64,000 nt of DNA. Origin: a virus. The stretch is from the IMG/VR virus record IMGVR_UViG_3300017917_001336, positions 62,001-126,000 of that record. One strand, written 5' to 3'. This document shows positions 32,134-43,624 of the stretch, piece after piece. The position numbers and the translations under genes were made by a program. Positions within the stretch are counted from its first letter, which is position 1, and the number at the start of each line of letters is the position of its first letter. The notes beneath the pieces were generated by a model. The model ran no database searches and had not been told where the DNA came from. It saw only the letters and a list, made by a program, of their open reading frames with translations.

Positions 32134-32340
32134 GGGCAAACCTGTAGCTAAGTCTAGTGCGGGATCTACATGTTCTACACTAGAACCAAAACGTATAATA
32201 AACTCTGTTAGTAACGGACCTTCTGGGATCCAAAAACGTGTACGATTTAAGTGCATTTCACTGGCTATACTATGACTCTTGATATAGTTGATAACGTGTA
32301 CAAAGTTTGGATTTTGGGTTAGAATATAATAGTGTCTCAT
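32128..32340 (-). CDS. Small protein, function unknown
   Basis: 70 residues (RHYYILTQNPNFVHVINYI, FWIPEGPLLTEFIIRFG). The start overlaps the upstream stop by ATGA, so it is coupled to the 43-residue gene before it. Convergent with the late gene ending at 32133. Confidence 0.6.
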   Translation of the reverse strand: MRHYYILTQNPNFVHVINYIKSHSIASEMHLNRTRFWIPEGPLLTEFIIRFGSSVEHVDPALDLATGLPL

Positions 32341-32468
32341 GCTAGAATATTTACTTGTGTGCCCTTGGGACGAGTATTATTATAGAGCCACATGTGATAA
32401 CGATGTAGTGTATTGTAGCTAGTACGATTAGGCGGGGATTGTTTTAAGTATTGAGCAGTTGTCCACAT
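32337..32468 (-). CDS. 43-residue protein with the shared early-gene Shine-Dalgarno
   Basis: 43 residues, aromatic and basic (MWTTAQYLKQSPPNRTSYN, then LHRYHMWLYNNTRPKG). The exact leader AAGGAGCGAAACTATG is the same module found before the early - strand genes, which argues for a real gene. No TTGACA/TATAAT is seen upstream; a TTAAATA sequence lies 20 nt before the leader and may be the promoter. Confidence 0.62.
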   Translation of the reverse strand: MWTTAQYLKQSPPNRTSYNTLHRYHMWLYNNTRPKGTQVNILA

Positions 32469-32496
32469 AGTTTCGCTCCTTGTGACAACGTATTTA

Positions 32497-32722: not shown

Positions 32723-32771
32723 AAAAAAAACCCCTAGGATACCGGGAGCGAATCGGGTTTATACCTAGGGG
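32723..32771 (-). terminator. Early-operon terminator with anti-Shine-Dalgarno loop
   Basis: Read on the - strand: CCCCTAGG, a 25-nt interior, CCTAGGGG, then eight T. The interior contains CGATTCGCTCCCGGTA, whose TTCGCTCC is the exact complement of the GGAGCGAA Shine-Dalgarno shared by the early genes. Confidence 0.85.
32740..32755. repeat. 16-bp direct repeat, copy 1
   Basis: TACCGGGAGCGAATCG on the + strand, identical to 32816-32831 and lying in the loop of the terminator hairpin. Confidence 0.9.
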
Positions 32772-32808
32772 CACTACAAAGGCCGTTGCCTCGTTGGCGT
32801 CGACCGCT

Positions 32809-32841
32809 GACAGCTTACCGGGAGCGAATCGTTGGGCTGTC
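32809..32841 (-). ncRNA. Second hairpin exposing the same anti-Shine-Dalgarno sequence
   Basis: Read on the - strand: GACAGC, 21-nt loop, GCTGTC. The loop holds the same 16 nt as the terminator loop (CGATTCGCTCCCGGTA). Two copies in adjacent hairpins of one 3' untranslated region suggest a small regulatory RNA; transcription and processing are not shown by sequence alone. Confidence 0.5.
32816..32831. repeat. 16-bp direct repeat, copy 2
   Basis: Identical to 32740-32755, in the loop of the second hairpin. Confidence 0.9.
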
Positions 32842-32864
32842 TACTACAGTATGCACTACAGCTC

Positions 32865-33770
32865 TTAGCGGCTGTTACGCATACACGTTACTTCTACTAC
32901 GCTACGCCAGTTGCTGGGCATACTAACACGAATGTCCGCAACCTTAAGCACCATACGCAGGCTTAGCTCTCGCATACGCTCTGCATTGTTATTAATGTAG
33001 TCTACTACTTCTTGCTTGTCCTCATCAGTTAGCTTGTAGTCATCGAGCATACCGCACTCGTTAACTACCTGCTTGATACGCAACAGCTTCTCACGGGTAG
33101 TATCAATAGTCAGATCCAAATAGTGACAACGTGACTCCAATGCTTCCAAGTGATCGCGCAGCTTCTTTGACTTAACGTGATCGAACTTGATGTTGCTAAT
33201 AAAGATAGCACCACCGTGGAAGTCGAAACTGTTGGGCACACCTTCTTGTCTAAGCAAACGGCTGTCCGTGTTCCAATGGATAGTACGCTTCTTACCTGAG
33301 TCTAGCGCAGCCTTTAGGATGTTCAAGCTAAGGTCATCTAGCAGTACAGAGTCGCAGTCATCAAACACTAGGATGCATTTACGATCGCTGAACTCGTAGA
33401 GCTTTTTGTACAAGCCAATGGCACTCATTGCGCCCTTGACTACTTCGTATTTCTTCAGCTTGGTATCGTTGGCTACATTAGCAAACACATCATGCTTGCC
33501 CAGTACCCGTTCTACACCAAAGCTCTTACCAACACCCGGAGGGCCAGTTACGATCATAGCACGAACATCACCCTTCTTTACAGCACGGGTCATGTCTTCT
33601 AGAATCTGAAAACGTTGGCCCAAACGTTCCATAATACTTTCATCGGACTCGGCTTTGAGCTGGCGCTCTTTTTCTTTAATATAGTCCTTGTCCTGCTCCA
33701 AGCTGGCTGTAGTGCCTGCTGAGCTCTTTTTACCTTTGGGCATGTCTGCTAGTGTCATTACTTTTGCCAT
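32865..33770 (-). CDS. AAA+ ATPase, early
   Basis: 301 residues. A lysine and glutamate-rich N-terminal 60 residues precede a single AAA+ module. Walker A is GPPGVGKS at about residues 76-83, Walker B is CILVFDDCDSVLL near residue 133, sensor 1 is GAIFISN near residue 187 and an arginine-rich segment follows. The protein resembles single AAA ATPases encoded in many large myoviruses, whose role (DNA metabolism or remodelling) is not settled. It has its own sigma70-type promoter and the leader AAAGGAGCGAA, and is the last gene of the early array. Confidence 0.85.
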   Translation of the reverse strand: MAKVMTLADMPKGKKSSAGTTASLEQDKDYIKEKERQLKAESDESIMERLGQRFQILEDMTRAVKKGDVRAMIVTGPPGVGKSFGVERVLGKHDVFANVANDTKLKKYEVVKGAMSAIGLYKKLYEFSDRKCILVFDDCDSVLLDDLSLNILKAALDSGKKRTIHWNTDSRLLRQEGVPNSFDFHGGAIFISNIKFDHVKSKKLRDHLEALESRCHYLDLTIDTTREKLLRIKQVVNECGMLDDYKLTDEDKQEVVDYINNNAERMRELSLRMVLKVADIRVSMPSNWRSVVEVTCMRNSR

Positions 33771-33799
33771 GTGTGTTCGCTCCTTTATTTAAAACATCT

Positions 33800-33828
33800 A
33801 GTATACTATCGAATGCAGTCTTGGTCAA
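33800..33828 (-). promoter_or_regulatory. Early promoter for the AAA+ ATPase
   Basis: - strand TTGACC, 17 bp, TATACT. The -35 overlaps the stop codon of the upstream small gene. Confidence 0.8.
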
Positions 33829-33983
33829 CTCTTTTGAAACACGCTTTGCACATAGCACTCGGAGCCATATTGGGCTTCTACTAGTGCTCGAGCCTGTTGC
33901 GGATGGTTGGCCTGAACCACTTGGGTAATGTTTCTCAGTTGGGTGTCGCCACCCACTGAGAATGTAACTTCATACATGTTCAT
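33825..33983 (-). CDS. 52-residue protein, function unknown
   Basis: 52 residues: MNMYEVTFSVGGDTQLRN, then QANHPQQARALVEAQYG and ECYVQSVFQ. The pattern (strand, VVQANHPQQARALVEAQYG helix, strand) is typical of small phage proteins. Start overlaps the upstream stop (TAATG); its own stop lies inside the next promoter's -35 box. Confidence 0.68.
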   Translation of the reverse strand: MNMYEVTFSVGGDTQLRNITQVVQANHPQQARALVEAQYGSECYVQSVFQKS

Positions 33984-34324
33984 TAGTCGAGCCTCGAACC
34001 TGCGTAAGCATCAAACCCATACTTGCGGAGTACTTGGGCGCAAGCTTCTGCACCCGCTTCTAGTGTATCCACGTTCTGGACATAGAGCCCGGATGGGTTC
34101 CAAAGCTGGAATGCCTTGTTATAGCTTTGGCGGATGCCTGCTTCTTTGAGTGTGCGACCCAGTTTGGTGTTGCCTTTGATACCCAGGATATCAACCCAGG
34201 CAAAGCCACATGCGAACTGGTCACGTCCGCCTAGTTTGGTTTGGAAGAACAGGGTTGCTGCTTCGGTAGCTGCTTGGCTAGCTTCTGCTACGATGTCTTT
34301 GACTTGCTCGACTGTATATTGCAT
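33983..34324 (-). CDS. Small conserved-type phage protein
   Basis: 113 residues. Helical N-terminus rich in Ala, then DQFACGFAWVDILGIKGNTK and QSYNKAFQLWNPSG, a pattern seen in unnamed small proteins of diverse myoviruses. Leader AAGGAGCGAACC and promoter 34357-34385. Confidence 0.72.
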   Translation of the reverse strand: MQYTVEQVKDIVAEASQAATEAATLFFQTKLGGRDQFACGFAWVDILGIKGNTKLGRTLKEAGIRQSYNKAFQLWNPSGLYVQNVDTLEAGAEACAQVLRKYGFDAYAGSRLD

Positions 34325-34356
34325 GGTTCGCTCCTTGCTGTGTTGTTTAAGTATGT

Positions 34357-34385
34357 ATTATACTATTTCAGGGCCGGGTTGTCAA
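34357..34385 (-). promoter_or_regulatory. Early promoter
   Basis: - strand TTGACA, 17 bp, TATAAT; consensus at both boxes. It lies within the last codons of the upstream 45-residue gene. Confidence 0.88.
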
Positions 34386-34500
34386 CCGTTTGATTCCGGT
34401 ATTTTTGGACTAGACCTTCTGCGGCCATTGCGATGCAGAGTATAGCAAGGAATGCCCAAAGCTCGATGGTCATATAAAATGCGTTGATTACTTCGTTCAT
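34363..34500 (-). CDS. 45-residue single-span membrane protein
   Basis: MNEVINAFYMTIELWAFLAI then LCIAMAAEGLVQKYRNQ: one hydrophobic helix and a basic tail. Start overlaps the upstream stop (ATGA). The 3' third of the gene doubles as the next promoter. Confidence 0.62.
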   Translation of the reverse strand: MNEVINAFYMTIELWAFLAILCIAMAAEGLVQKYRNQTVDNPALK

Positions 34501-34829
34501 GCTGCCTCCTTAAGGGTTAGAATTTTTGCAGGGTAAGTAATAGAACCTTCCCACTCCAACTGGCTCTTTTCGAACTCAGTCATGTAATCATCGGCTACTA
34601 CACCGTAGGACACGATGTATTGGCGTGAGCCTATATCATCCCACTCTACTTCAGAACGGAAGTAGTTGACCAGCTCTGCTAGAGCTTCATCGGAGCGACC
34701 TGCTGCACCCAGCGGATAGAAGTAGTCCTCACCGCCTTTGAACTTCCAATACTGTGGGCACTCGCCGGTGCCGTCCCAATCGTGGGCACCATAGTTTTCC
34801 ATGTATTGGCAAGTAATGTGCAGTTTCAT
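34497..34829 (-). CDS. Small protein, function unknown
   Basis: 110 residues, aromatic-rich. QYMENYGAHDWDGTGECPQYWKFKG near the N-terminus (read with a break at GTG) resembles an unnamed family found in phages of many hosts. Leader AAAGGAGCGAATATG; promoter 34859-34887. Confidence 0.72.
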   Translation of the reverse strand: MKLHITCQYMENYGAHDWDGTGECPQYWKFKGGEDYFYPLGAAGRSDEALAELVNYFRSEVEWDDIGSRQYIVSYGVVADDYMTEFEKSQLEWEGSITYPAKILTLKEAA

Positions 34830-34858
34830 ATTCGCTCCTTTGTTTAACTTATGCTGCT

Positions 34859-34887
34859 AGTATAGCAAATTTGGGCTAGGCTGTCAA
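34859..34887 (-). promoter_or_regulatory. Early promoter with extended -10
   Basis: - strand TTGACA, 17 bp ending TGC, TATACT. Confidence 0.88.
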
Positions 34888-34891
34888 CCAA

Positions 34892-35119
34892 TTAGTCCCA
34901 GCTCTTTTTATCACCGAACTGCTCGTTCCACTGGTAGCCTGCGAGATAGGCTTGAACTTCTGTAGGTGTTAGATCCGTTACACGATCCGATGTGCCAGTG
35001 CCACCAACATAGTAATGTGGCTGGCGTCCACGGCCGTAGTAGCTGTCTGCAGAGCCTCTATCAAAAGGGCCGCCGTGGCGTTGATCGTATGCGTCTCGGG
35101 ATTCGTATGTAAATGGCAT
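34892..35119 (-). CDS. Small Tyr and Gly-rich protein
   Basis: 75 residues from ATG 35119, chosen because AAGGAGCGATACA precedes it; the longer frame runs through the promoter. Central RGSADSYYGRGRQPHYYVGG is flexible, and the C-terminal DLTPTEVQAYLAGYQWNEQFG looks helical. Similar short proteins occur in T4-like and other phages. Function unknown. Confidence 0.72.
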   Translation of the reverse strand: MPFTYESRDAYDQRHGGPFDRGSADSYYGRGRQPHYYVGGTGTSDRVTDLTPTEVQAYLAGYQWNEQFGDKKSWD

Positions 35120-35146
35120 TGTATCGCTCCTTGTTAGTATGTGTAC

Positions 35147-35175
35147 ATTATAGCAAGGAACAGCCAAACTGTCAA
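35147..35175 (-). promoter_or_regulatory. Early promoter inside an inverted repeat
   Basis: - strand TTGACA, 17 bp ending TGC, TATAAT. The -35 box lies in the loop of an 11-bp inverted repeat (35159-35169 with 35178-35188, one G-T pair). Confidence 0.88.
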
Positions 35176-35203
35176 CCGTTTGGTTGTTGTATTTTTACAA
35201 CAG

Positions 35204-35280
35204 TGGCCTGCCCGGAGGGAATCGAACCCCCAACCTACGGCTTAGAAGGCCGTTGCTCTATCCGGTTGAGCTACGGGCAG
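35204..35280 (-). tRNA. tRNA-Arg (anticodon TCT), CCA encoded
   Basis: 77 nt on the - strand including 3' CCA. Acceptor CTGCCCG pairs with CGGGCAG, the D arm contains AGCTCAACCGGATAGAGC, the anticodon loop is CTTCTAA (anticodon TCT, reading AGA), and the T arm contains GGTTCGATTCC. AGA is a frequent codon in the AT-rich phage genes, so it may supplement the host pool. Confidence 0.95.
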
Positions 35281-35285
35281 ATGAA

Positions 35286-35363
<78 letters not shown>

Positions 35364-35370
35364 GGTTGTG

Positions 35371-35559
35371 TTATCTACTTAGCTGTTTGATTGATTGGTA
35401 GTCACCATCACTGGTTTCTTCGAATACTTCTACAAAGTCGCACCCGTCATTAAATGTACGTTCTGCGAGTTGTATTGCTTCCTTCTTAGAGTGTGTGGTT
35501 TCGATGAGTTCTTGATGGCCATCTAGCTCGGCCCAAACTTCATACTGAGTCCAGCTCAT
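35371..35559 (-). CDS. Small protein, function unknown
   Basis: 62 residues; a beta-alpha-beta pattern (YEVWAELDGHQELIETTHSK then EAIQLAERTF). Overlaps the upstream gene by 20 bp. It lies just upstream of the tRNA genes and is probably co-transcribed with them. Confidence 0.62.
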   Translation of the reverse strand: MSWTQYEVWAELDGHQELIETTHSKKEAIQLAERTFNDGCDFVEVFEETSDGDYQSIKQLSR

Positions 35560-35731
35560 TTCTTTCTTTCTGGTTAAGAAGATCGCAAAGCATCTGTCCT
35601 AGTTGCTCTGCTTCGTGTCTATTGTCTCTTGCAATGATGCAGAGCACCCGCCCAGCTGGGACTGATTTAAAGTCCCTAACAACTACCCTATTAGGGCCGT
35701 AGTCGTCACTGAGCGAGCATCCGTATCGCAT
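35540..35731 (-). CDS. Small protein, function unknown
   Basis: 63 residues; alpha-beta pattern (NRVVVRDFKSVPAGRVLCII, then EAEQLGQMLCDLLN). It begins immediately after the stop of the gene upstream. Unusually it lacks the GGAGCG leader, consistent with translation coupled to the upstream gene. Confidence 0.6.
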   Translation of the reverse strand: MRYGCSLSDDYGPNRVVVRDFKSVPAGRVLCIIARDNRHEAEQLGQMLCDLLNQKERNELDSV

Positions 35732-36097
35732 TTAGAAAGGTGCGTCTTCTGCGTCTGCAGGAACAGCAGCCTTAGCCTTAGTCTTTGACTGTGCCTTAGC
35801 AGGAGCCTTCGCAGGTGCTGCCTTAGCTTTAGGAGCTTTGGGTGCCTTAGGAGCCTTGTCTTCCAAGTACTCCGCAATCGCTGACTGTGCAGCGGCGTCC
35901 TGGAACTCGTCCATAGACTGAAGCTGTTTGACAGCCTCATACTTCGAAACAGCTTCGTCGAGCTCAGCAAGACGAATGTCTTCGTGGCCATGTTTAGCCA
36001 GTACTTTGATACGCATAATATCAGTTGCAAAGCGCACCTTGTACTCGCCATTGAGTTTCGAAACGCCAACGATGTTAAAAGTTTTATCTGTAGCCAT
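35732..36097 (-). CDS. Small DNA-metabolism-like protein with SSB-type acidic tip
   Basis: 121 residues from ATG 36097 (ribosome binding site AGAGGT); a longer frame runs through the promoter. Residues 1-75 form a small domain (TFNIVGVSKLNGEYKVRFA, DIMRIKVLAKHGHEDIRLAE). Then a Lys-Ala-Pro linker (repeats of KAPKAP) leads to the C-terminal ADAEDAPF. That tip resembles the bacterial SSB tail (DDDIPF-type: acidic residues then Pro-Phe) that recruits repair and replication proteins. Related N-terminal domains occur in cyanophages. The mimicry is inference. Confidence 0.72.
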   Translation of the reverse strand: MATDKTFNIVGVSKLNGEYKVRFATDIMRIKVLAKHGHEDIRLAELDEAVSKYEAVKQLQSMDEFQDAAAQSAIAEYLEDKAPKAPKAPKAKAAPAKAPAKAQSKTKAKAAVPADAEDAPF

Positions 36098-36157
36098 TGT
36101 AATACCTCTTTCTGTGTGTGGTTTAAGTTTATATGCCAGTTTCCTTAGCATGTTTCT

Positions 36158-36186
36158 ATTATAAGTTCATTTGCTCGGTTTGTCAA
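36158..36186 (-). promoter_or_regulatory. Early promoter
   Basis: - strand TTGACA, 17 bp, TATAAT; overlaps the 3' end of the upstream gene. Confidence 0.88.
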
Positions 36187-36436
36187 CCGTTTTGTGCCTC
36201 TTTTGGGCAACCAATTTCTCTTTCTCTTTGCCAAATTCCTTTTCTGAGTAGTATTCAATCAAATGGTGTCTAATCATTAGGGTTAGATCCATTCCGGAAT
36301 CATCTGGGCAGATAAATCGGACTGGACAGTATCCCCAACTCCTCGTTTGGACAAACTGGTAATACCAGCGCCTATGATCCTTGTTGTAAGGATCAAAGGC
36401 TACCAGCGGGCGTGAATAATATTCTAACTTACTCAC
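36167..36436 (-). CDS. Small protein with GTG start, function unknown
   Basis: 89 residues; GTG at 36436 overlaps the stop of the small frame before it. Contains PLVAFDPYNKDHRRWYYQFV and CPVRFICPDDSGMDLTLMIR with a lysine-rich C-terminus. Its last codons cover the next promoter. Family not recognised. Confidence 0.6.
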   Translation of the reverse strand: MSKLEYYSRPLVAFDPYNKDHRRWYYQFVQTRSWGYCPVRFICPDDSGMDLTLMIRHHLIEYYSEKEFGKEKEKLVAQKRHKTVDKPSK

Positions 36437-36536
36437 GATCCTCTATCCATAGACGCATAATTGCATCCAATTGGTCCATCGCTTCTTTACTTGCTACCAT
36501 GTGGTTCCAATCCTCTCTTTTCAATGCCATCTTCAT
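36429..36536 (-). CDS. Short candidate gene bridging two genes
   Basis: 35 codons from ATG 36536 (MKMALKREDWNHMVASKEAM then DQLDAIMRLWIEDRE); a start at ATG 36500 with GAGAGGA upstream is also possible. It overlaps the end of the 211-residue gene and the GTG start of the next, the usual coupled layout here. Weakly supported. Confidence 0.4.
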   Translation of the reverse strand: MKMALKREDWNHMVASKEAMDQLDAIMRLWIEDRE

Positions 36537-37122
36537 ACCATTCCTGGACTTCGTCCATTTCCTCTGCTTCATACTCTGCCATTGACTCACTGATACCAAA
36601 CATCTCGTCCAGTTCCTCGCCAATGGTGTCTACAACAGTCTTAGAGTTGGTGCCACCGTAATCGTAGCACTCGTCGTAACCGTCTTCGAACTTGCCCACA
36701 TAAGCCATACCTGGCTCGTAGTAGTAAGCACGAACTTCAAAGCCTTGCTCAACCAACTCTTCGTAAACACCCATAGGAGGGCTCCACGCAGAGTCAAATC
36801 CAAATTCAATAGTGTTGTCTTCTACAACAACAGCCTCAGGGTCATAAGCATCAACATCCCATTTGGTGCCCCAGCGGCCTACGCAGAAGTCATACCAGTT
36901 GCCATAGCCATACTTCTCGACATTTTCAGCAGTCTTACGAACCAATTCAATTTGGTCCGGGTTGTCATCGCTACCCACGCAACCTGCTACAATGTTCAGG
37001 TCCTCTGGAACAGGAATGACGTGTTTAAGGAATCTGCCTTCGCGGACAGCACTCGCAAGCGCCTCTATTTTAGCAGAGTCAGTGTGTGAAATTGTGACGT
37101 TGTTATTGCACCAATTAGGCAT
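36487..37122 (-). CDS. Api92/YubB-like ferredoxin-fold phage protein
   Basis: 211 residues. Begins MPNWCNNNVTISH, the signature of the Api92-like/YubB (DUF1281) phage and plasmid proteins, followed by FLKHVIPVPEDL and NWYDFCVGRWGTKWDV near residue 75. The distal half is very acidic and Tyr-rich. Function of the family is unknown. Leader TAGGAGCGAACT; co-transcribed with the gene upstream (18-bp gap). Confidence 0.82.
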   Translation of the reverse strand: MPNWCNNNVTISHTDSAKIEALASAVREGRFLKHVIPVPEDLNIVAGCVGSDDNPDQIELVRKTAENVEKYGYGNWYDFCVGRWGTKWDVDAYDPEAVVVEDNTIEFGFDSAWSPPMGVYEELVEQGFEVRAYYYEPGMAYVGKFEDGYDECYDYGGTNSKTVVDTIGEELDEMFGISESMAEYEAEEMDEVQEWYEDGIEKRGLEPHGSK

Positions 37123-37140
37123 AGTTCGCTCCTATGTTGT

Positions 37141-37404
37141 TTAAGAAAATTCGTAAAAGGTTACGCTAGGGTCAATGCTCATCAACTCGCGGGCTGCACG
37201 GCGCAGATAAGTTGCACGGTCCTGCAGGGCCTTACCACGCAGTTCGCCATCGCAAGTAAGGTTCTCTGGGCTAAGGTCCGCATCCAAAGAGTTCGCAATC
37301 TTCTGGCGGTCCTCTGCGTTGAGCAGGCTCAAGGCCTTGCTACCAAAGATAGCACCCCAACGGTTCTTTTGCTCTACATAGTGTTCGATAGTTGAAATAT
37401 TCAT
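37141..37404 (-). CDS. Small protein, function unknown
   Basis: 87 residues, helical (KALSLLNAEDRQKIANSLDA, DRATYLRRAARELMSIDPSV). Leader CAGGAGCGAAA and promoter 37434-37462. Confidence 0.65.
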   Translation of the reverse strand: MNISTIEHYVEQKNRWGAIFGSKALSLLNAEDRQKIANSLDADLSPENLTCDGELRGKALQDRATYLRRAARELMSIDPSVTFYEFS

Positions 37405-37433
37405 TTTCGCTCCTGTTTATTTACTATAACTCT

Positions 37434-37462
37434 ATTGTAAGCTCAAATGATCACTTTGTCAA
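37434..37462 (-). promoter_or_regulatory. Early promoter
   Basis: - strand TTGACA, 17 bp, TACAAT. The -35 box overlaps the stop of the upstream gene. Confidence 0.8.
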
Positions 37463-37696
37463 CCGGAACTGATCAATAACCCTATTAGCTTCAGGGAAAT
37501 CGGTGTTGTTTTTCTGCAACATTTCCTCGTCCACGCACTCCATAATCATTAGACGCTGGAGCAGTTCTGCTTGGTGTTGCTGGGCAGGGTCGAGCGCATC
37601 GTACCAGTTGAGGAAGTCCTCTTCGGTTTCAAGTTCGTTCCACATGAAGTCCAGCATCTCCACTTGTTCTTCAGTTAGGTTGTTGATCGTAGGCAT
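37451..37696 (-). CDS. Small acidic helical protein
   Basis: 81 residues, acidic, helical (LTEEQVEMLDFMWNELETEE then AELLQRLMIMECVDEEM). One base separates it from the upstream stop, so it is coupled to the HTH-like gene. Function unknown. Confidence 0.62.
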   Translation of the reverse strand: MPTINNLTEEQVEMLDFMWNELETEEDFLNWYDALDPAQQHQAELLQRLMIMECVDEEMLQKNNTDFPEANRVIDQFRLTK

Positions 37697-37697
37697 A

Positions 37698-37874
37698 TTA
37701 GGAGTTGATAGTTGCGTTAGGGCTGTATTCCTCGTCTACACCGCACCCGTTGGACTCAATCCAATCGTATACGATATCCACAGGACAGCCTAGTTGGACA
37801 GCAATACTCTTAGGGCCATAGCCCTCAATGTAGAGCTGTTCAATGTCGTATGCTAGGTCTTTCAGTTTAGTCAT
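37698..37874 (-). CDS. 58-residue helix-turn-helix-like protein
   Basis: 58 residues. MTKLKDLAYDIEQLYIEGYG then PKSIAVQLGCPVDIVYDWIE has the helix-turn-helix pattern of sigma or resolvase-type DNA-binding segments (G in the turn, hydrophobic anchors). Similar mini-proteins occur in T4-like cyanophages. It overlaps the upstream gene by 8 bp. A DNA-binding regulator is plausible. Confidence 0.7.
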   Translation of the reverse strand: MTKLKDLAYDIEQLYIEGYGPKSIAVQLGCPVDIVYDWIESNGCGVDEEYSPNATINS

Positions 37875-38079
37875 CGTAGGCCTCCTCGCCCAATTCAGTT
37901 ACTTCTTCTTCCAGCACCATTACGTCAATGATGCGAGCTGTTTGATCTTCGTTGCTTACGCCCTGGAACGCAGTACGAAAGGATTGATACTCACCGAGGA
38001 AGTCATAGACATCCATTCGGTCCCAGCCCTCTGGCACTTCAATCTCTTGCCGGAGGATAGTTGTTACATAGGCTTTCAT
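37867..38079 (-). CDS. Small acidic protein, function unknown
   Basis: 70 residues (YVTTILRQEIEVPEGWDRMD, acidic C-terminus EEEVTELGEEAYDD). Overlaps the upstream gene by 4 bp (ATGA) and the downstream gene by 8 bp, with AGGAGGCAGC as ribosome binding site. Confidence 0.62.
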   Translation of the reverse strand: MKAYVTTILRQEIEVPEGWDRMDVYDFLGEYQSFRTAFQGVSNEDQTARIIDVMVLEEEVTELGEEAYDD

Positions 38080-38558
38080 GCTGCCTCCTTCTCTGCTTGG
38101 AACGCAAATGCTTCTTCCAGTGTAAGGAACTCGCCGTCAGTGCCGTAAAAGTCAACAAACCAAGTAGCCTTGCCGTTTACATTGCGCAGGATGTATTCGT
38201 ACTCCTCACGCTGGTGCTCTCGTGCATATTCCTCAAAGTTCTTAAAACGCTTGGCACCCACACCCTCTTCGCCGCGATCGCGACCGTAGAAGGTAGTAAT
38301 TTGTTGGCGTGCTTCTTGCTCTGCTTGGTACTCAGGGGTACCGTACTTGGCTTGTATGTCAAAGCTGTGCTTCTCGCCAATCTCAGGGCCCAGCGAGCTA
38401 ACATCGCCCAAGTCCATAAGCTTCTGCACTTTGAAGGGATCCATGTAGTGATCGCGCAGGATAACACCGTTGTGATCTAAGTAACCGTCCCAGTGGCAGT
38501 AGATCTGATCCACAGTACCGTCTGCGTATTCAATTGCAATAGTTGATCGTGTAGCCAT
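38076..38558 (-). CDS. Conserved phage protein of unknown function
   Basis: 160 residues. MATRSTIAIEYADGTVDQIY then CHWDGYLDHNGVILRDHY is a well-conserved start found in unnamed proteins of many T4-like and other large phages, followed by KVQKLMDLGDVSSLG. The C-terminus is GKATWFVDFYGTDGEF then LTLEEAF. Leader CAGGAGCGAAA and promoter 38590-38618. Confidence 0.8.
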   Translation of the reverse strand: MATRSTIAIEYADGTVDQIYCHWDGYLDHNGVILRDHYMDPFKVQKLMDLGDVSSLGPEIGEKHSFDIQAKYGTPEYQAEQEARQQITTFYGRDRGEEGVGAKRFKNFEEYAREHQREEYEYILRNVNGKATWFVDFYGTDGEFLTLEEAFAFQAEKEAA

Positions 38559-38589
38559 TTGTTTCGCTCCTGTGTGTGTTTAAGCCTTA

Positions 38590-38618
38590 ATTATACAACC
38601 TTTTGGGTCCGCTGTCAA
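38590..38618 (-). promoter_or_regulatory. Early promoter
   Basis: - strand TTGACA, 17 bp, TATAAT; consensus at both boxes. Overlaps the end of the upstream gene. Confidence 0.88.
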
Positions 38619-38851
38619 GCCACTTCTTTGTAGACTTTGTAGCCGTAGATCGCCAGCTTGCGGATAGCCGATTGGATCTCGCCGTAGGTCTCGTTGAGGT
38701 CTTCTAGGCACTTCTTAGCATCTTTGATAGTGTCTGCGGTGCAGGTCTCGCCTGAGTAGATGTGTCTGCAGTCGTAGTAACGATCGCCATCGTCAGTGAC
38801 CAGTTGGTAAGTGCCAAAGGTCTTGTACATTGTCATCTCGCCTGTTTTCAT
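38615..38851 (-). CDS. Small protein, function unknown
   Basis: 78 residues from ATG 38851 after AAGGAGCGAGCG; a longer frame would start inside the structured leader and is rejected. Contains TYQLVTDDGDRYYDCRHIYS then IKDAKKCLEDLNETYGEIQ. It is preceded by an unusually long 210-nt leader. Confidence 0.65.
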   Translation of the reverse strand: MKTGEMTMYKTFGTYQLVTDDGDRYYDCRHIYSGETCTADTIKDAKKCLEDLNETYGEIQSAIRKLAIYGYKVYKEVA

Positions 38852-39064
38852 CGCTCGCTCCTTGTTGATTAATCTGTTGGGGAACTCCGGACTAGCCGCT
38901 AGCACCGTCTGCTAGATCGTCTGCCTTCGTCATTACCGCCTACCTTCTCCGCCGCTTCTCCGAGCTTACGCCCTGTTTCATGTGCTTAGATTGAGCGTGA
39001 CCGTCGCCACTGTCCTAACCCTCTAAGCACCTAACGGTGTAGGTAACCCCTAATTCCTTACTAT
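38852..39064 (-). ncRNA. Structured leader or small RNA, about 210 nt
   Basis: Gene-free, GC-richer than its surroundings and transcribed from promoter 39071-39099. It holds a perfect 9-bp helix (38982-38990 with 39022-39030, GTGCTTAGA and complement) and a 6-bp hairpin (38899-38904 with 38910-38915). Other early genes have leaders of about 25-40 nt, so this long insert is likely a functional RNA, either a 5' regulatory leader or a separate transcript. No known RNA family was recognised. Confidence 0.5.
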
Positions 39065-39067
39065 GTG

Positions 39068-39325
39068 TTAATTATAAGCCCAAACCTCAACCTTGTCAAC
39101 CTCTGCAATAACCCTACTGCCTGTATGGGTAATGTAAACTTTAGTACTATCTGTACCGCCTTCAACTAGGAAGACAGCCATGTAGACGAATTGCCCACCG
39201 TTGCTTATGCCCAGGAACTTGCACGAGCTGAACGCAGGGCCCTTATAGCCATTCTCGCGGGCTAGGCTGTTGAGCGTAGGCCCATTGTAGGAGATAAGAG
39301 TTTTTAGTGTCTCTGGGGTAATCAT
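39068..39325 (-). CDS. Small protein whose end encodes the next promoter
   Basis: 85 residues (LISYNGPTLNSLARENGYK, GQFVYMAVFLVEGGTDSTKV). The ribosome binding site GAGGAG is inside the upstream gene, with ATGA overlap. The final residues V-D-K-V-E-V-W-A-Y-N are encoded by the next promoter: GTTGAC for the -35 and TATAAT for Tyr-Asn. Confidence 0.65.
   Translation of the reverse strand: MITPETLKTLISYNGPTLNSLARENGYKGPAFSSCKFLGISNGGQFVYMAVFLVEGGTDSTKVYITHTGSRVIAEVDKVEVWAYN
39071..39099 (-). promoter_or_regulatory. Early promoter embedded in a coding end
   Basis: - strand TTGACA, 17 bp, TATAAT. Drives the structured leader and the gene at 38615-38851. Confidence 0.88.
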
Positions 39326-39474
39326 TTAGGCTCCTCAATTTTTAAGTTAGACAACACGGCTTCTAGTGTGTCGTAAGCCATTTGCCAACGATCCCCAGGG
39401 ATGTTATAGATCTGACTAATAGCATCGTTGAGAGTAGCTAGAGCCTCTAGCTTCTTGTAGTCTTGCTCAGTCAT
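39322..39474 (-). CDS. 50-residue protein, function unknown
   Basis: MTEQDYKKLEALATLNDAIS then QIYNIPGDRWQMAYDTLEAV: two helices. Overlaps both neighbours by 4 bp (ATGA), as expected for a coupled operon gene. Confidence 0.62.
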   Translation of the reverse strand: MTEQDYKKLEALATLNDAISQIYNIPGDRWQMAYDTLEAVLSNLKIEEPK

Positions 39475-39791
39475 TCTGCATCCTCCTCTACTGCTTCGTC
39501 TTCCAAGCAGTCAAAGCAGTCCTCTACACGATTGTGTCCCTGATAGATAGTGTAGTCGCCAATTTGTGTTTTACATTCTTTGTCAATGTACTCGAAGCCG
39601 CCGTAGTACTCTAAGCTACGGGCATTGTCGCTAACAATAACACGCTCGCCTCTGTCAATGTACACACGGCCGCAACGGATGTCTAGTCCCAGCTTGTCAG
39701 CACTCACCCGTTCCATACCCGCTACAAAACGCTCAATGCCGTAGCTAACCTCGTCTACAACATCCAAAATGCTAGTGCAGTCTTTAAACAT
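39471..39791 (-). CDS. Small acidic protein, function unknown
   Basis: 106 residues with a beta-rich core (LGLDIRCGRVYIDRGERVIV, then SLEYYGGFEYIDKE) and an acidic Cys-containing tail. Leader AAAGGAGCGAAACT and promoter 39823-39851. Confidence 0.65.
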   Translation of the reverse strand: MFKDCTSILDVVDEVSYGIERFVAGMERVSADKLGLDIRCGRVYIDRGERVIVSDNARSLEYYGGFEYIDKECKTQIGDYTIYQGHNRVEDCFDCLEDEAVEEDAE

Positions 39792-39822
39792 AGTTTCGCT
39801 CCTTTTGTTTAACTTAGCCTAT

Positions 39823-39851
39823 AGTATAGCACCGAGGGCCCAAACTGTCAA
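39823..39851 (-). promoter_or_regulatory. Early promoter with extended -10
   Basis: - strand TTGACA, 17 bp ending TGC, TATACT; spacer begins GTTTGGGC, shared with several neighbours. Confidence 0.88.
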
Positions 39852-40072
39852 CCCCATGCTTTCAATAACCCTGCACAGCACACAAGTATTCCCGCAAGGT
39901 TGACAAGGATTTGTGCTTTGTTGCGTACCCTATAGCTCCACATAAAATAAAAGCTACCACCGCATAGCCCTGCTACTAAATTGTAGGGGTACAGTTGGGG
40001 GTAAAAAGACATTAATATGTACATTGTGAGGAGGCACATAGTGCCTGCCCACTGTAGCATATTATTAAACAT
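39848..40072 (-). CDS. Small membrane protein with three hydrophobic segments
   Basis: 74 residues from ATG 40072. Hydrophobic segments MLQWAGTMCLLTMYILMSFY, YNLVAGLCGGSFYFMWSY and AQILVNLAGILVCCAGLL suggest three membrane spans. The size and layout recall small SemiSWEET- or holin-like proteins, but no motif decides. Overlaps the upstream gene by 8 bp. Confidence 0.66.
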   Translation of the reverse strand: MFNNMLQWAGTMCLLTMYILMSFYPQLYPYNLVAGLCGGSFYFMWSYRVRNKAQILVNLAGILVCCAGLLKAWG

Positions 40073-40250
40073 TGTCTGCCTCAAATTCCATTACGTCACA
40101 GCGCAAGTCCTCTACAATGTCCTCAATCCTGCAATGCGTCTCATAGCACACGTCACTGTCACCCAGTGCATCTTGTATAAGTGCGTCTGCGTCCTCTAGC
40201 AATTCCATTGCCTCGCGCAGTTTAGCTGCTTTTTGTTTTGCTGTTAGCAT
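40065..40250 (-). CDS. Small acidic helical protein
   Basis: 61 residues (KLREAMELLEDADALIQDAL, HCRIEDIVEDLRCDVMEFEA). Leader AAGGAGCGACACT and promoter 40281-40309. Function unknown. Confidence 0.66.
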   Translation of the reverse strand: MLTAKQKAAKLREAMELLEDADALIQDALGDSDVCYETHCRIEDIVEDLRCDVMEFEADNV

Positions 40251-40280
40251 AGTGTCGCTCCTTGCTGTTTAAGTGTTTTA

Positions 40281-40309
40281 ATTATAGCGCACATAGCCCA
40301 ATCTGTCAA
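40281..40309 (-). promoter_or_regulatory. Early promoter flanked by a perfect inverted repeat
   Basis: - strand TTGACA, 17 bp, TATAAT. Arms AGCGCACAT (40286-40294) and ATGTGCGCT (40312-40320) are exact complements and bracket the spacer and -35. Confidence 0.88.
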
Positions 40310-40328
40310 CCATGTGCGCTTGTGTTAA

Positions 40329-40661
40329 TTAAAACGCCCCTTCAAAAATTTGTTGTGTTTCGTATGCATACAAATCGCCTGTAGCCTTTTCGCGTACAGT
40401 AATCCAATCCTGTGCATAAAAGCGTTCTTGCTCATATGCGCTACCCATAAAAAAGTAACAGTCTACAGTCTCAAACTCAATCTCGTCTGTAGCAAATTGT
40501 TTAACAATGTATTCACCACATTCATCAGCGTCTAACGCATACCCGTGTTCACCAACGCTACCTAGTACATTAGCAATCCAGCGTTCCTGCTGCTCTTGCG
40601 TGTCCTCTGTGTATGTAATGTCTTGCAGTTTGCACAATTTTACAAAATTACGCTTTTCCAT
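40329..40661 (-). CDS. Small acidic protein, function unknown
   Basis: 110 residues (QERWIANVLGSVGEHGYALD, FFMGSAYEQERFYAQDWITV). Leader AAGGAGCGAAAA. Its promoter is the degenerate site described at 40691-40718. Confidence 0.65.
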   Translation of the reverse strand: MEKRNFVKLCKLQDITYTEDTQEQQERWIANVLGSVGEHGYALDADECGEYIVKQFATDEIEFETVDCYFFMGSAYEQERFYAQDWITVREKATGDLYAYETQQIFEGAF

Positions 40662-40690
40662 TTTTCGCTCCTTCTAATTACAGTACAGCT

Positions 40691-40718
40691 AGTATAGCAC
40701 AGCTAGCCTAGCTGTGCT
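40691..40718 (-). promoter_or_regulatory. TATACT -10 fused to a 23-nt palindrome in place of a -35 box
   Basis: - strand TATACT at 40691-40696. No TTGACA is present 17 bp upstream; instead a near-perfect palindrome, AGCACAGCTAG, C, CTAGCTGTGCT (40696-40718), fills the spacer. It is the only early promoter in the array lacking a -35 and could be an operator or need an activator. Confidence 0.6.
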
Positions 40719-40727
40719 GTGCTTACA

Positions 40728-41051
40728 TTACGCCTCCATGCTAGCAAGCTCGTCCTCTTGCATACCTTGTTCTGTAAAGCTAACAGCAAAGCCTACAGCG
40801 TCACTAATAGCAGTTTCAAACCCACTATCTGTATAAATGTCCCATGTGCTGTTGTGTTGCACATTTACCATTGTATAAAATTCGCTGTCGTAAATGTTAT
40901 TAATAATAGTAATACCTGTTACATTAATAACACGCCCTGCCTCACAGCCCCACAAGCCGTCGCCTGCTGTAGTAACTGTAAATGCACACATAAATTCTGT
41001 AATAATACAGTCTACGTCACGCTCGTAACGCACAAGCACTAATTTTTGCAT
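40728..41051 (-). CDS. Small protein, function unknown
   Basis: 107 residues, beta-rich (FMCAFTVTTAGDGLWGCEAG, RVINVTGITIINNIYDSEFY) with an acidic C-terminus. Leader AAAGGAGCGATGT and promoter 41081-41109. Confidence 0.65.
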   Translation of the reverse strand: MQKLVLVRYERDVDCIITEFMCAFTVTTAGDGLWGCEAGRVINVTGITIINNIYDSEFYTMVNVQHNSTWDIYTDSGFETAISDAVGFAVSFTEQGMQEDELASMEA

Positions 41052-41080
41052 ACATCGCTCCTTTTGCTACTTAAAAAACA

Positions 41081-41109
41081 ATTATAGCACAGCAAGCCCA
41101 AAATGTCAA
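41081..41109 (-). promoter_or_regulatory. Early promoter flanked by a perfect inverted repeat
   Basis: - strand TTGACA, 17 bp ending TGC, TATAAT. Arms AGCACAGCAAG (41086-41096) and CTTGCTGTGCT (41110-41120) are exact complements; the first 8 bases match the arm of the palindrome at 40696. Confidence 0.88.
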
Positions 41110-41134
41110 CTTGCTGTGCTAATAACCCTACAGT

Positions 41135-41365
41135 TTAGTCTATTATTTGCACATTAGCACAGCGCAAAGTCTGCATAGCAGTATTAATGCTTTTTAATAC
41201 TTCTGCTTGTGCATTTACATAATCTGTACTACAAATATCTCCTGTAACTAGTACAGCATTTTTAACAGTTACTACATTATGCTTATCAAAACTAAAAATT
41301 ACGCGATAAGTGTTAAGACGCTTGTTTACTACTACTTTAGCTAACACAGTACAATTTGTTTGCAT
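41135..41365 (-). CDS. Small protein, function unknown
   Basis: 76 residues (TVLAKVVVNKRLNTYRVIFS, then a C-terminal helix QAEVLKSINTAMQTLRCANV). Leader AGAAGGAGCGTGT and promoter 41389-41417. Confidence 0.64.
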   Translation of the reverse strand: MQTNCTVLAKVVVNKRLNTYRVIFSFDKHNVVTVKNAVLVTGDICSTDYVNAQAEVLKSINTAMQTLRCANVQIID

Positions 41366-41388
41366 ACACGCTCCTTCTAAGTGTTTGT

Positions 41389-41417
41389 ATTATAGCGCAG
41401 CTAGCCCAAAATGTCAA
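41389..41417 (-). promoter_or_regulatory. Early promoter
   Basis: - strand TTGACA, 17 bp, TATAAT; spacer TTTTGGGC as in the promoter at 41081. The -35 overlaps the stop region of the upstream gene. Confidence 0.88.
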
Positions 41418-41653
41418 ATCCCTACAGCTTGTAGGGTCTTTAGTTCTTGTTGCAATTCTGCCACACGCTGTTTTTGCAGTTGTGCAATAAACTTGACTTT
41501 TTTAGTTTCGATGTCTTTGCGGAACTTATTAATGCTTACATTTAGCATATAAGAGGTTTGTCCGTAGCTTTGCAGCTTATTTTGTGTTTTGTACACATGA
41601 GCACGAGCGGCAGACATAGCGTATGCGTTTACAGTATTAGCGTATTGACCCAT
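41414..41653 (-). CDS. Small basic coiled-coil protein
   Basis: 79 residues from ATG 41653 (ribosome binding site AAAAGGAAC); a longer frame runs through the promoter and terminator and is rejected. Basic helices, ending in the coiled coil KFIAQLQKQRVAELQQELKT. Function unknown. Confidence 0.66.
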   Translation of the reverse strand: MGQYANTVNAYAMSAARAHVYKTQNKLQSYGQTSYMLNVSINKFRKDIETKKVKFIAQLQKQRVAELQQELKTLQAVGI

Positions 41654-41674
41654 CTTTGTTCCTTTTAAAAATGT

Positions 41675-41703
41675 ATTATAGCACACTTTGGACCCGCTGT
41701 CAA
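41675..41703 (-). promoter_or_regulatory. Early promoter with extended -10
   Basis: - strand TTGACA, 17 bp ending TGC, TATAAT. Confidence 0.88.
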
Positions 41704-41737
41704 CAACCCTAACGACCGTAGGGTCTCTCATGATCCA

Positions 41738-41766
41738 TTGACGCCTAACCCAAAAGGCAGTATAAT
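41738..41766 (+). promoter_or_regulatory. Sigma70-type promoter facing right, no gene downstream
   Basis: + strand TTGACG, 17 bp, TATAAT. It points away from the early array toward a gene-free 110-nt stretch and then antisense to the gene at 41884. Confidence 0.75.
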
Positions 41767-41772
41767 ACATGT

Positions 41773-41885
41773 ATTCGAACAAAGGGGGGTGGACGTCGAG
41801 GCTGGGCGTCAGTTTCTGAGCCTGAAATAAGAAAAAGTGTGGCATCTGCGCCACACTCTAGAATACCCTGGTTGACAGCAGGGTT
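41773..41885 (+). ncRNA. Candidate small RNA A (+ strand)
   Basis: Begins after promoter 41738-41766. Its 5' part shares TTCGAACA and GGGG-n-TGGACG-n-CGAGG with candidate RNA B at 43702. It ends in hairpins GTGTGGC / GCCACAC and CCCTG / CAGGG. No T-run follows on this strand, so the 3' end is uncertain. Confidence 0.4.
41829..41858 (-). terminator. Terminator of the - strand genes at 41884-42425
   Basis: - strand AGTGTGGC, GCAGAT, GCCACACT followed by TTTTTCTT. Ends the two-gene transcript before the next promoter. Confidence 0.88.
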
Positions 41886-42147
41886 ACATGCTCCAGTATG
41901 CCTCGCTGGATGGGCTACAGTATCTGGGCGTATCAAATCGTTCCATGTACTCTTTACCACCCATCATGTTGATCCGCTTGACCATAGTCTCATGGATTTC
42001 ATAGCGGAACCCTTGACTGGCTCGCCACGTATGCTTGACAGTATGCTCTAGGGTCTTGAGGTCTGTAGTATCATAGTCACTATAATGCACTCGGCGCTCG
42101 CCTGCCTTGGTGCGAGCATCCTTTTTGTATATGATAACGGTATACAT
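41884..42147 (-). CDS. Small protein, function unknown
   Basis: 87 residues, basic (MYTVIIYKKDARTKAGERRV, SQGFRYEIHETMVKRINMMG). Start overlaps the upstream stop (TAATG-type). Terminator follows. Confidence 0.64.
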   Translation of the reverse strand: MYTVIIYKKDARTKAGERRVHYSDYDTTDLKTLEHTVKHTWRASQGFRYEIHETMVKRINMMGGKEYMERFDTPRYCSPSSEAYWSM

Positions 42148-42425
42148 TATGCAGCCTCCAACATTGACAGTGGAACGGAGTAGACCATGTTCATGCTAGG
42201 GATATGCACATCGGCCTTCTTGATCTTGATCTTGCGGATCGTTCCCACTACGGTACCACCCAACTTGGCATGGGTCAGTTTAACCTTATCGCCACTGTGG
42301 AAGGTGCAGGCGTTAACCCGGGCAGTCTTTGAACGGGCAAAGGCCACAGCGTCTACAATACTTTGCAGATCCTGCGCAGACCACGCACCCGAAATAATTG
42401 CACGATTGATAGTACCAATATCCAT
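42147..42425 (-). CDS. KOW/SH3-like small protein
   Basis: 92 residues. The N-terminal helix region is SAQDLQSIVDAVAFARSKTA. The C-terminal half, FHSGDKVKLTHAKLGGTVVG then TIRKIKIKKADVHIP, fits a small SH3/KOW-type barrel often used to bind nucleic acid. Leader AAAAAGGAGCGTGAA and promoter 42455-42483. Confidence 0.7.
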   Translation of the reverse strand: MDIGTINRAIISGAWSAQDLQSIVDAVAFARSKTARVNACTFHSGDKVKLTHAKLGGTVVGTIRKIKIKKADVHIPSMNMVYSVPLSMLEAA

Positions 42426-42454
42426 TTCACGCTCCTTTTTGTCTAAGTGTTTCT

Positions 42455-42483
42455 ATTATATGCTCAAACGCACCCGCTGTCAA
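42455..42483 (-). promoter_or_regulatory. Early promoter
   Basis: - strand TTGACA, 17 bp, TATAAT; consensus at both boxes. Confidence 0.88.
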
Positions 42484-42491
42484 CCTACTAA

Positions 42492-42506
42492 GCAGCGGGG
42501 CCTATT
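42492..42506. repeat. GCAGCGGGGCCTATT repeat, copy 1
   Basis: Shares 15 bp with 44414-44428 and 13 bp with 44620-44632. Confidence 0.7.
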
Positions 42507-43209
42507 ATGCAGCTACAGCGATTGGAATCATACGGCGAACGAACCCAGTGGTGTCCTTCTTAGCACGACCCTTAGCCTTAAGCCCTGCGATGCAACCCTT
42601 AGGGTCCAAAAAGCGCAGGTCAGTGTCGTCTGCATTAATTACAGGACGGCCCATGTAAGAGTCTGGGAGCTTGTCAAAGACAGCAGCCACGTTCATACCT
42701 GCACTCACTGCCTTTTGTACGTCTGCTTCGTTACCGTCTGCAGCTGAGAACGTCAAGTGATAGTTGGGCAGGTGTGCTACCTTGCGTCCAAGCACCTTAG
42801 TATAGTCATAGAACTGTACATTGGGGAACTTCTCAATGATACCGTACTTCTCCCAAGCCAAGTCCGATGTACCGTTAAGGCGGAACACGGGTGTCAAACC
42901 CAGCTTCGCAGACTGTTTGATGCCCAGCTTGATGTCCTTCTCCAGCTGAGCCATAAATGCATCACGCTGCTCAAAGAACATCCTAGTCTTGCGAATGCGA
43001 GCCTGCTGGATCATGTTGGTGTTTTCACCGCGCTTGAACATACCACCGCGCCCGGCAGTATTCAAACAGGCAGCGGTACAGCCTGCGGTGCGCTTAGGGC
43101 AAGTCTCCTTACCGGACAGCGTCGCAGGAGCAAGATGCAGAATAAAGCTAAGATAGCCCAATTTTGCACCCTTTTGGATCTTGGGATTTGCAGTACTTAG
43201 AAGTTTCAT
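42505..43209 (-). CDS. Gp88-family phage protein
   Basis: 234 residues. Matches the Gp88-type family of phage proteins of unknown function: LLSTANPKIQKGAKLGYLSF then ILHLAPATLSG and a cysteine cluster CPKRTAGCTAACLNTAGRGG near residues 37-56, followed by NTNMIQQARIRKTRMFFEQR. The C-terminal half alternates strands and helices (FRLNGTSDLAWEKYGIIEKF, VQFYDYTK), suggesting a TIM-barrel-like enzyme; the cysteines could hold a metal cluster. Leader ATGGAGCGAAC and promoter 43241-43269. Confidence 0.8.
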   Translation of the reverse strand: MKLLSTANPKIQKGAKLGYLSFILHLAPATLSGKETCPKRTAGCTAACLNTAGRGGMFKRGENTNMIQQARIRKTRMFFEQRDAFMAQLEKDIKLGIKQSAKLGLTPVFRLNGTSDLAWEKYGIIEKFPNVQFYDYTKVLGRKVAHLPNYHLTFSAADGNEADVQKAVSAGMNVAAVFDKLPDSYMGRPVINADDTDLRFLDPKGCIAGLKAKGRAKKDTTGFVRRMIPIAVAA

Positions 43210-43240
43210 GTTCGCTCCATGTTCGTTTAAGTTAGCCTAT

Positions 43241-43269
43241 AGTATAGCAAGAATTAATAACCCTGTCAA
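43241..43269 (-). promoter_or_regulatory. Early promoter with extended -10
   Basis: - strand TTGACA, 17 bp ending TGC, TATACT. The -35 overlaps the end of the upstream GIY-YIG gene. Confidence 0.88.
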
Positions 43270-43589
43270 CCGTCGGTGTATTGGTCGTTGAGCGAGGGTT
43301 GATGCTGCTTGACCCATGCCCGTTCCCAAGCATAAGCTTCAGCCCGCCCACGTATGACAGCCAGTACTTCGTGTTCCCAGTCTGTCCAAGCACCAGCACG
43401 GATATATTCGTATACAGTCCACGCCTGCTGTTCGTGACGAGCCCGGCTAATATGCTTACGCCAACGCTCTGCCACTGCCTTAGGTACTGTACGGGTGCCC
43501 TTACGGGTCAAGCCCACGTATACATTGCCTTCATGCATAGCAGCGTAGATAACATAGTTTGAATCTTTACGAGCAGTTCTTTTTGTCAT
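43266..43589 (-). CDS. GIY-YIG endonuclease-like protein
   Basis: 107 residues from ATG 43589. NYVIYAAMHEGNVYVGLTRK is a GIY-YIG signature (VIY then YVG), the motif-2 arginine lies in AERWRKHISRARH, and WEHEVLAVI near the end carries the motif-4 glutamate. Single small nuclease domains of this kind occur in phages as homing or host-DNA nucleases. A longer upstream frame is rejected because a consensus promoter ends 6 nt before this ATG, implying a leaderless message. Confidence 0.8.
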   Translation of the reverse strand: MTKRTARKDSNYVIYAAMHEGNVYVGLTRKGTRTVPKAVAERWRKHISRARHEQQAWTVYEYIRAGAWTDWEHEVLAVIRGRAEAYAWERAWVKQHQPSLNDQYTDG

Positions 43590-43595
43590 AGTCGT

Positions 43596-43624
43596 ATTAT
43601 AGCATTCCGAGCCCAAACTGTCAA
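43596..43624 (-). promoter_or_regulatory. Early promoter, leaderless arrangement
   Basis: - strand TTGACA, 17 bp ending TGC, TATAAT, then 6 nt to the ATG at 43589. First promoter of the early array, spacer GTTTGGGC. Confidence 0.88.

Follow-up and report, generated by a model that had tools for sequence, protein, structure and literature searches.

In the phage studied here, the loops of two successive hairpins downstream of an AAA+ ATPase gene carry a core word, TTCGCTCC, whose complement, GGAGCGAA, serves as an extended Shine-Dalgarno (SD) sequence ahead of many genes in the same block, and this complementarity has almost certainly been kept by selection. Loop and leader appear to pair as RNA, most likely through an RNA from the 3' end that occludes the ribosome-binding sites of early genes, and the product is probably an antisense RNA that represses early translation at least partly in trans, while the case for and against its serving an early-to-late switch is evenly balanced. 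The window analyzed is a stretch of 64,000 nucleotides (bases 62001-126000 of a viral record of 147,567 bases, or 147.6 kb), in whose numbering positions are given, and it was compared with relatives gathered by ATPase protein homology alone, such that their selection was blind to the words.

Hairpin loops and leader words in the window

Downstream of the ATPase stop codon the 16-mer CGATTCGCTCCCGGTA occurs as two exact copies on the - strand (32816-32831 and 32740-32755), with no third copy in the window and a chance expectation of 0.09 matches at three or fewer mismatches. RNA folding places both copies in hairpin loops and a run of eight T directly follows the second hairpin (Table 1), which bears out the first-pass annotation of an identical 16-nt sequence in two successive loops after the ATPase gene, the second with eight T. 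That annotation also had the loop sequence complementing the early SD, which is exact over 8 nt and does not extend over all 16, the outer bases of the 16-mer being the repeated inner stem. Even a single TTCGCTCC in the ~130-nt 3' region has a chance probability of ~0.0016. The presumed RNA sits in the 3'UTR and has its terminator in common with the ATPase mRNA; the promoter scan gave no promoter of its own just upstream of 32723-32866 on the - strand, and hence processing has to be assumed for a free RNA. Folded as a whole, the 145 nt do only mildly better than shuffled sequence (z -1.6). Rfam covariance models run over the window scored above gathering for two tRNAs only and for no family in the loop region, where the best score (32723-32766) was that of NsiR1, with 13.4 bits against the 39 needed.

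The word GGAGCGAA, counted on both strands, has 12 copies in the window against 0.8 expected from shuffles, and the same 12 are the only sites in the whole 147.6 kb record, namely ten - strand sites beginning ~9-13 nt ahead of start codons between 32.4 and 43.2 kb, together with the two loops. The shorter word GGAGCG is present in 16 - strand leaders of the window, ten of these having the full GGAGCGAA, and in only one + strand leader. A recount agrees with the earlier tally of 16 and ten, with the proviso that the 16 were selected for having the word and that the block has ~10 more - strand starts with a different SD (GGAGGC, GAGGAG and the like), mostly in genes overlapping the preceding gene.

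The promoter scan found ten perfect TTGACA-N17-TATAAT sites and several sites of 10-11/12 on the - strand from 33.8 to 43.6 kb, ~16 in the block, and in most of them 23-32 nt separate the end of the -10 box from the start codon of a gene with the word. The block had been described as one operon, a description that does not hold because it contains ~16 sigma70 promoters of its own; it consists rather of several transcription units, probably with the double hairpin as their common end, and its status as "early" is presumed from these strong, host-type promoters. The association of word and promoter extends to the relatives, which are treated below as clades A to D. In clade A, a promoter scoring at least 10/12 lies within 80 nt of 290 of 308 word leaders (operon strand) compared with 59 of the 301 leaders, on both strands, that have a different SD, and in clade B such promoters accompany 254 of 288 word leaders. 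The word therefore marks the first genes of strong transcription units, and genes without it are mostly internal. Ten 12/12 promoters per 10 kb, ahead of nearly each small early gene, represent an unusually dense arrangement, and the block also includes genes for tRNA-Arg(TCT) and tRNA-Met(CAT) (35204-35363, - strand).

Table 1. Positions in the window of the ATPase gene, the loop hairpins, the promoter cluster and the word-bearing leaders.
Feature	Position	Strand	Remarks
AAA+ ATPase gene, 301 aa, host gene of presumed RNA	32865-33770	-	phrog_1250; T4 nrdC.10 homologue
Presumed 3'UTR-derived RNA, ~145 nt, with both loops	32723-32866	-	
Hairpin 1	32809-32841	-	Stem GACAGC/GCTGTC plus 2-bp inner stem; 9-nt loop ATTCGCTCC at 32821-32829
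Hairpin 2 (terminator hairpin)	32731-32771	-	Outer stem CCCCTAGG/CCTAGGGG, inner CCG/CGG; 9-nt loop ATTCGCTCC at 32745-32753
Eight-T run	32723-32730	-	Intrinsic terminator tail; 3' end of presumed RNA
Near-consensus sigma70 promoter cluster	33800-43624	-	Ten at 12/12
Own leader of ATPase (ORF 32865-33770), GGAGCGAAC	33776-33783 (word)	-	
Leader GGAGCGAA of ORF 33983-34324	34327-34334	-	sigma70 promoter 12/12 upstream
Leader GGAGCGAA of ORF 34497-34829	34831-34838	-	Promoter 11/12
Leader GGAGCGAA of ORF 36487-37122	37125-37132	-	
Leader GGAGCGAA of ORF 37141-37404	37406-37413	-	Promoter 11/12
Leader GGAGCGAA of ORF 38076-38558	38563-38570	-	Promoter 12/12
Leader GGAGCGAA of ORF 39471-39791	39795-39802	-	Promoter 11/12
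Leader GGAGCGAA of ORF 40329-40661	40664-40671	-	
Leader GGAGCGAA of ORF 42505-43209 (phrog_1617)	43211-43218	-	Promoter 11/12
Leader GGAGCGAA of possible 43-aa ORF 32337-32468 (ORF unsupported)	32472-32479	-	Beyond terminator; reachable only in trans
Six GGAGCG leaders without full GGAGCGAA	35119-42440	-	ORF starts 35119, 38851, 40250, 41051, 41365, 42425

Loop and leader among relatives of the phage

ATPase homology replaced the 16-mer as search key, which had given 98 matches in viral contigs, a good part of them expected by chance. No DNA relative was found among isolate phages and none in GTDB genomes. No cultured phage is near enough to be expected to have the system, the closest by ATPase being PA5oct (46% identity), whose leaders and 3' end have no such words; an RNA-seq-based putative lncRNA is located in PA5oct ~2 kb upstream of the ATPase gene (L332:3085-3703). 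The first-pass annotation implied that leaders and loops should change together in relatives, and this is true in three of the four clades (A, B and C); in clade D one phage, L381, also fits, and most loci have uniform GGAGCA leaders with no matching loop nearby.

Clade A comprises ~55 loci in which one to three hairpins with GATTCGCTCCC follow the ATPase gene. The 9-nt loop ATTCGCTCC and its closing G-C pair are constant and the stems vary, the second and third pairs (CG/CG, TG/CA, CCG/CGG, GTG/CAC and others) being paired in 94% and 74%, and the outer stems differing almost everywhere but still pairing (in 46 of 47 terminator hairpins, with 34 distinct arms). Such repeated-loop hairpins with diverged stems are what characterizes sRNAs of the SmelA075/099 type. 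A test that demanded strictly contiguous stems underestimated the hairpins, whose inner stem is interrupted after 2-3 bp; RNA folding, with shuffled flanks as the control, was used instead and put TTCGCTCC in a predicted hairpin loop in 68 of 101 cases (67%) as opposed to 9% in the control. Near the ATPase stop, 129 occurrences of TTCGCTCC are in the loop sense and two in the leader sense. In the clade A leaders the bases after GGAG are C (75%), G (66%), A (63%) and A (60%), a bias that is absent from the opposite strand, and the ATPase gene's own leader has the class word in 50 of 56 clade A and 32 of 44 clade B genes.

In clade B (~49 relatives), the 3' region carries hairpins that present GCCCTC in the loop, from one to about six of them, and the leaders read GAGGGC; GCCCTC lies in a predicted loop in 74 of 128 cases (58%), compared with 7% with shuffled flanks. 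Of 862 leaders in loci whose loops are TTCGCTCC, 287 contain GGAGCG and 2 GAGGGC; of 840 in loci whose loops are GCCCTC, 4 contain GGAGCG and 276 GAGGGC. Related sequences enter these counts repeatedly, and loop class agrees with leader class in 102 loci and disagrees in none. On a tree of the ATPases, A and B are separated by essentially one change, L161 forming an additional, deep branch of type A, and this rules out reading A and B as many independent switches. Many leaders per genome had to change with the loop, and the count of events is still one. The clade B arrays downstream of the ATPase gene (L204, L231, L236, L203) consist of consecutive loop hairpins whose number differs among relatives, which suggests dosage by copy number.

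In the more distant clade C, the hairpin after the ATPase gene has words such as CTAGCTCCTA, ATTGCTCCG, AATGCTCCT and TTTCGCTCC, which the general leaders do not match and the ATPase gene's own leader alone fits. Leader/loop pairs include ACGGAGCAA/TTGCTCCGT, AGGAGCATTC/GAATGCTCCT, GGAGCGAA/TTCGCTCC (L270) and TAGGAGCTAA/TTAGCTCCTA (L291), frequently in the form GGAGC(N)TAG with one base bulged. Over 19 distinct loop/leader combinations, in a final permutation that used the length-consistent start codon, the mean duplex energy was -12.3 kcal/mol compared with -11.2 (sd 0.28) for shuffled leaders, 1 of 20,000 shuffles being as good. The two bases after GGAGC matched exactly in 9 of the 19, against 3.3 expected and with 0 of 20,000 shuffles reaching this; as the rows are related, neither figure is a strict probability. 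The other ten combinations have no exact 2-nt extension and some of them fit through a bulged base. When uncertain start codons were used, the permutation showed a smaller excess (6.40 vs 6.01, sd 0.10). In the sister rows L295 and L306 both words differ together, and words recur on separate branches of the tree. Most simply, the system would have begun as the autoregulation of a single gene and later widened to a regulon, the reverse order being possible.

Clade D (L333-L411) has uniform AAGGAGCA leaders (GGAGCA) in many loci, most of which are without a matching loop near the ATPase gene, and thus uniform leaders can exist with no antisense RNA nearby. Some clade D loci have a structured RNA after an HTH-like gene (motif PSREIVALGY), the GCTCC loops of which fit GGAGC only and not the extension. 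In L381, 10 of 27 leaders are GGAGCAA and there are hairpins with TTGCTCC loops, one of them a T8 terminator, so that this clade D phage is apparently an independent instance of the system; its two TTGCTCC arrays (L381:4380-4475 and 6521-6580) have several words in hairpin loops and the leaders read TAGGAGCAA.

Related hairpins occur at further sites. Type A phages have ATTCGCTCC hairpins after a small HTH-like gene as well (L161:2322-2400, L240:5613-5740, L117:4330-4375), with one more at L161:8476-8494, and the HTH-like homologue of the window (55846-56118, + strand) has an ordinary terminator. A conserved structured RNA of the form GCTCCAAAGTCC, GGGGTAGTGTCCCC, GGCCA, GCTCC loop, TGTTAGTG lies after the HTH-like gene in several loci and is found at L248:5547-5680, L390:6090-6180, L382:2790-2880 and L157:7365-7400; it is possibly an undescribed RNA family. 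An intergenic hairpin at L172:14519-14541 (ccggtTGACAACTCCAGCaccgg, loop TGACAACTCCAGC) fits the TGGAGTTG leaders of that relative, and it was not counted, being 5 kb from the ATPase gene and without a terminator.

Pairing, proposed action and alternative readings

In the ribosome, the leader SD pairs with the 3' end of the 16S RNA, CACCUCCUUA. Nothing is contributed to this pairing by the extension CGAA (GGC in clade B), which gives three to four more pairs with the loop, and the computed energies are -13.1 kcal/mol for loop:leader and -7.6 kcal/mol for 16S:leader. Pairs of the wrong class are weak (-5.4 kcal/mol for loop A with leader B, -6.1 for loop B with leader A). A block of initiation would be expected because the pairing site covers the SD, an effect already known from other anti-SD sRNAs (for example PMC4132741).

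In the mechanism proposed here, early transcripts would start at strong sigma70 promoters with a leader of ~25 nt containing the extended SD GGAGCGAA, and would probably run to a shared terminator, ending in two hairpins that each present the 9-nt loop ATTCGCTCC. These two loops would be the active sites of an antisense RNA derived from the 3' end, and their 8-bp pairing with GGAGCGAA would close the ribosome-binding site both on the RNA's own mRNA and, in trans, on other early mRNAs. As early transcription would feed into a single common 3' end, the RNA would accumulate with the total of that transcription, and the synthesis of early proteins would come under negative feedback after a delay. 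Processing into a stable RNA, repression, the participation of a chaperone or nuclease, and the timing are each points that we infer.

The 3' loops of each mRNA could instead kiss the leader of the same molecule (5'-3') and tune its translation or stability in cis only and without a free regulator, in keeping with the fit of the clade C loop to the ATPase gene's own leader alone, with the class word in most ATPase leaders of clades A and B, and with the missing promoter match for a free RNA. Such an arrangement is unlikely, however: ~50 loci (for example L109, L116, L162, L163 and L205) have genes with the word on the far side of the terminator array, mostly without further loop words in the locus sequence examined, and clade B has several loop hairpins after a single gene, more than one leader would require. 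The many word-bearing genes past the array speak for action in trans. In the window phage, where the whole record has two loops only, the leader at 32472 is past both, its 43-aa ORF being unsupported.

In T4-type phages, copying or homogenizing of early-promoter cassettes has been proposed, and if promoter plus SD were spread over the block in this way the leaders would owe their likeness to this alone and the loop complement would be unrelated or a by-product. The nearly fixed distance between word and promoter and the uniform clade D leaders without loops nearby are consistent with this, but it predicts neither complementary words in loops with stem turnover, nor the GAGGGC/GCCCTC switch, nor the clade C co-variation, and it is very improbable. 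We consider it equally implausible that a protein (a translational repressor or anti-terminator) recognizes the hairpin loops. The closing G-C pair and the inner CCG/CGG stem conserved around the loop would suit it, yet a protein that binds single-stranded RNA would recognize an identical word and not its complement, the inner stems switch among CG/CG, GTG/CAC and others, and the 129 to 2 preponderance of the loop sense near the ATPase stop speaks against a protein or DNA site alike. Least probable of all is a reversed direction, in which the hairpin RNA is itself the target of early leaders, mainly hits host mRNAs, or is a sponge with early mRNAs as competitors. The pairing evidence is symmetric and host targets are possible, GTDB genomes having given no relative that points to a host, but the leader word clusters at the ribosome-binding sites of the phage and varies together with the loop.

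Going back to the antisense RNA, we lean slightly toward an address-code regulon, in which early genes share an SD with three to four extra nucleotides that are useless to the ribosome and complementary to the loops of a 3'-end RNA. The early class would be silenced in trans and genes with other SDs would escape; loop and address would drift together, and related phages would use mutually blind codes (GGAGCGAA and GAGGGC). Such a regulon may have grown out of the autoregulation of one ATPase gene.

Known systems and meaning for phage biology

Several known RNAs share parts of this arrangement. SmelA075 and SmelA099 of Rhizobiales are sRNAs with three or four hairpins that have the same anti-SD loop, CCUCCUCCC, on variable stems (PMC3927594), and the hairpins described here likewise combine a shared SD-complementary loop motif with varying stems. 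Unlike these bacterial, trans-encoded sRNAs with a loop against the general SD (PMC3927594), the phage loops lie in a 3'UTR and fit a clade-specific extended SD with which they co-vary, and CCUCCUCCC is absent, the loops being ATTCGCTCC, GCCCTC, TTGCTCC and others. Listeria LhrC has redundant UCCC sites, two of them in loops including that of the terminator, which bind the SD region of targets and impede translation (PMC4132741). The redundant C-rich loop sites directed against the SD, the terminator loop among them, are a likeness to LhrC and other UCCC-motif sRNAs, whereas LhrC is bacterial and stress-induced (PMC4132741), has no coding of a target class by an SD extension and shows no sequence relation. 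OppZ and CarZ are 3'UTR sRNAs that base-pair with their own transcript and inhibit its translation, with a role of RNase E shown (PMC7398697). The clade C case resembles them in that a predicted 3'-end RNA is complementary to the translation start of its own transcript; unlike it, OppZ and CarZ are non-phage, have no repeated loops reported in the abstract and do not address a many-gene leader class (PMC7398697).

Among phage RNAs, the antisense RNAs c4 (P1/P7) and sar (P22) block translation initiation, c4 probably via loops (PMC12197685). The putative RNA would likewise be a phage RNA directed at translation initiation on phage mRNA, but c4 and sar have one target, ant, in immunity control, with no regulon and no location at the 3' end of an early block (PMC12197685), compared with 16 leaders in the window and hundreds over the relatives here. 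The T4 endoribonuclease RegB inactivates many early transcripts, its own included, at GGAG in initiation regions (PMC3014915). RegB is a protein that cuts RNA and the present candidate is an RNA with complementary loops, the analogy being one of role only (PMC3014915). Parts of the system resemble known ones, namely multi-loop anti-SD sRNAs and 3'UTR autoregulatory sRNAs, and the open-licence literature searched yielded no phage RNA that addresses an early gene class by a shared SD extension and no early regulon of this kind.

The end of the early phase is well described for T4, where it involves promoter shut-off, RegB and RegA, and to our knowledge is poorly described for most other large lytic phages. 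If the proposal is true, an RNA reading the extension of the early SD would provide a simple way to turn off translation, with delay and dose sensing built in, and this putative switch is seen in more than 100 uncultured phage contigs. The system makes a clear prediction for metatranscriptomes and offers a natural pair of orthogonal leader/antisense codes that is testable in E. coli. It also illustrates how a one-gene autoregulatory 3'UTR might turn into a regulon-wide switch.
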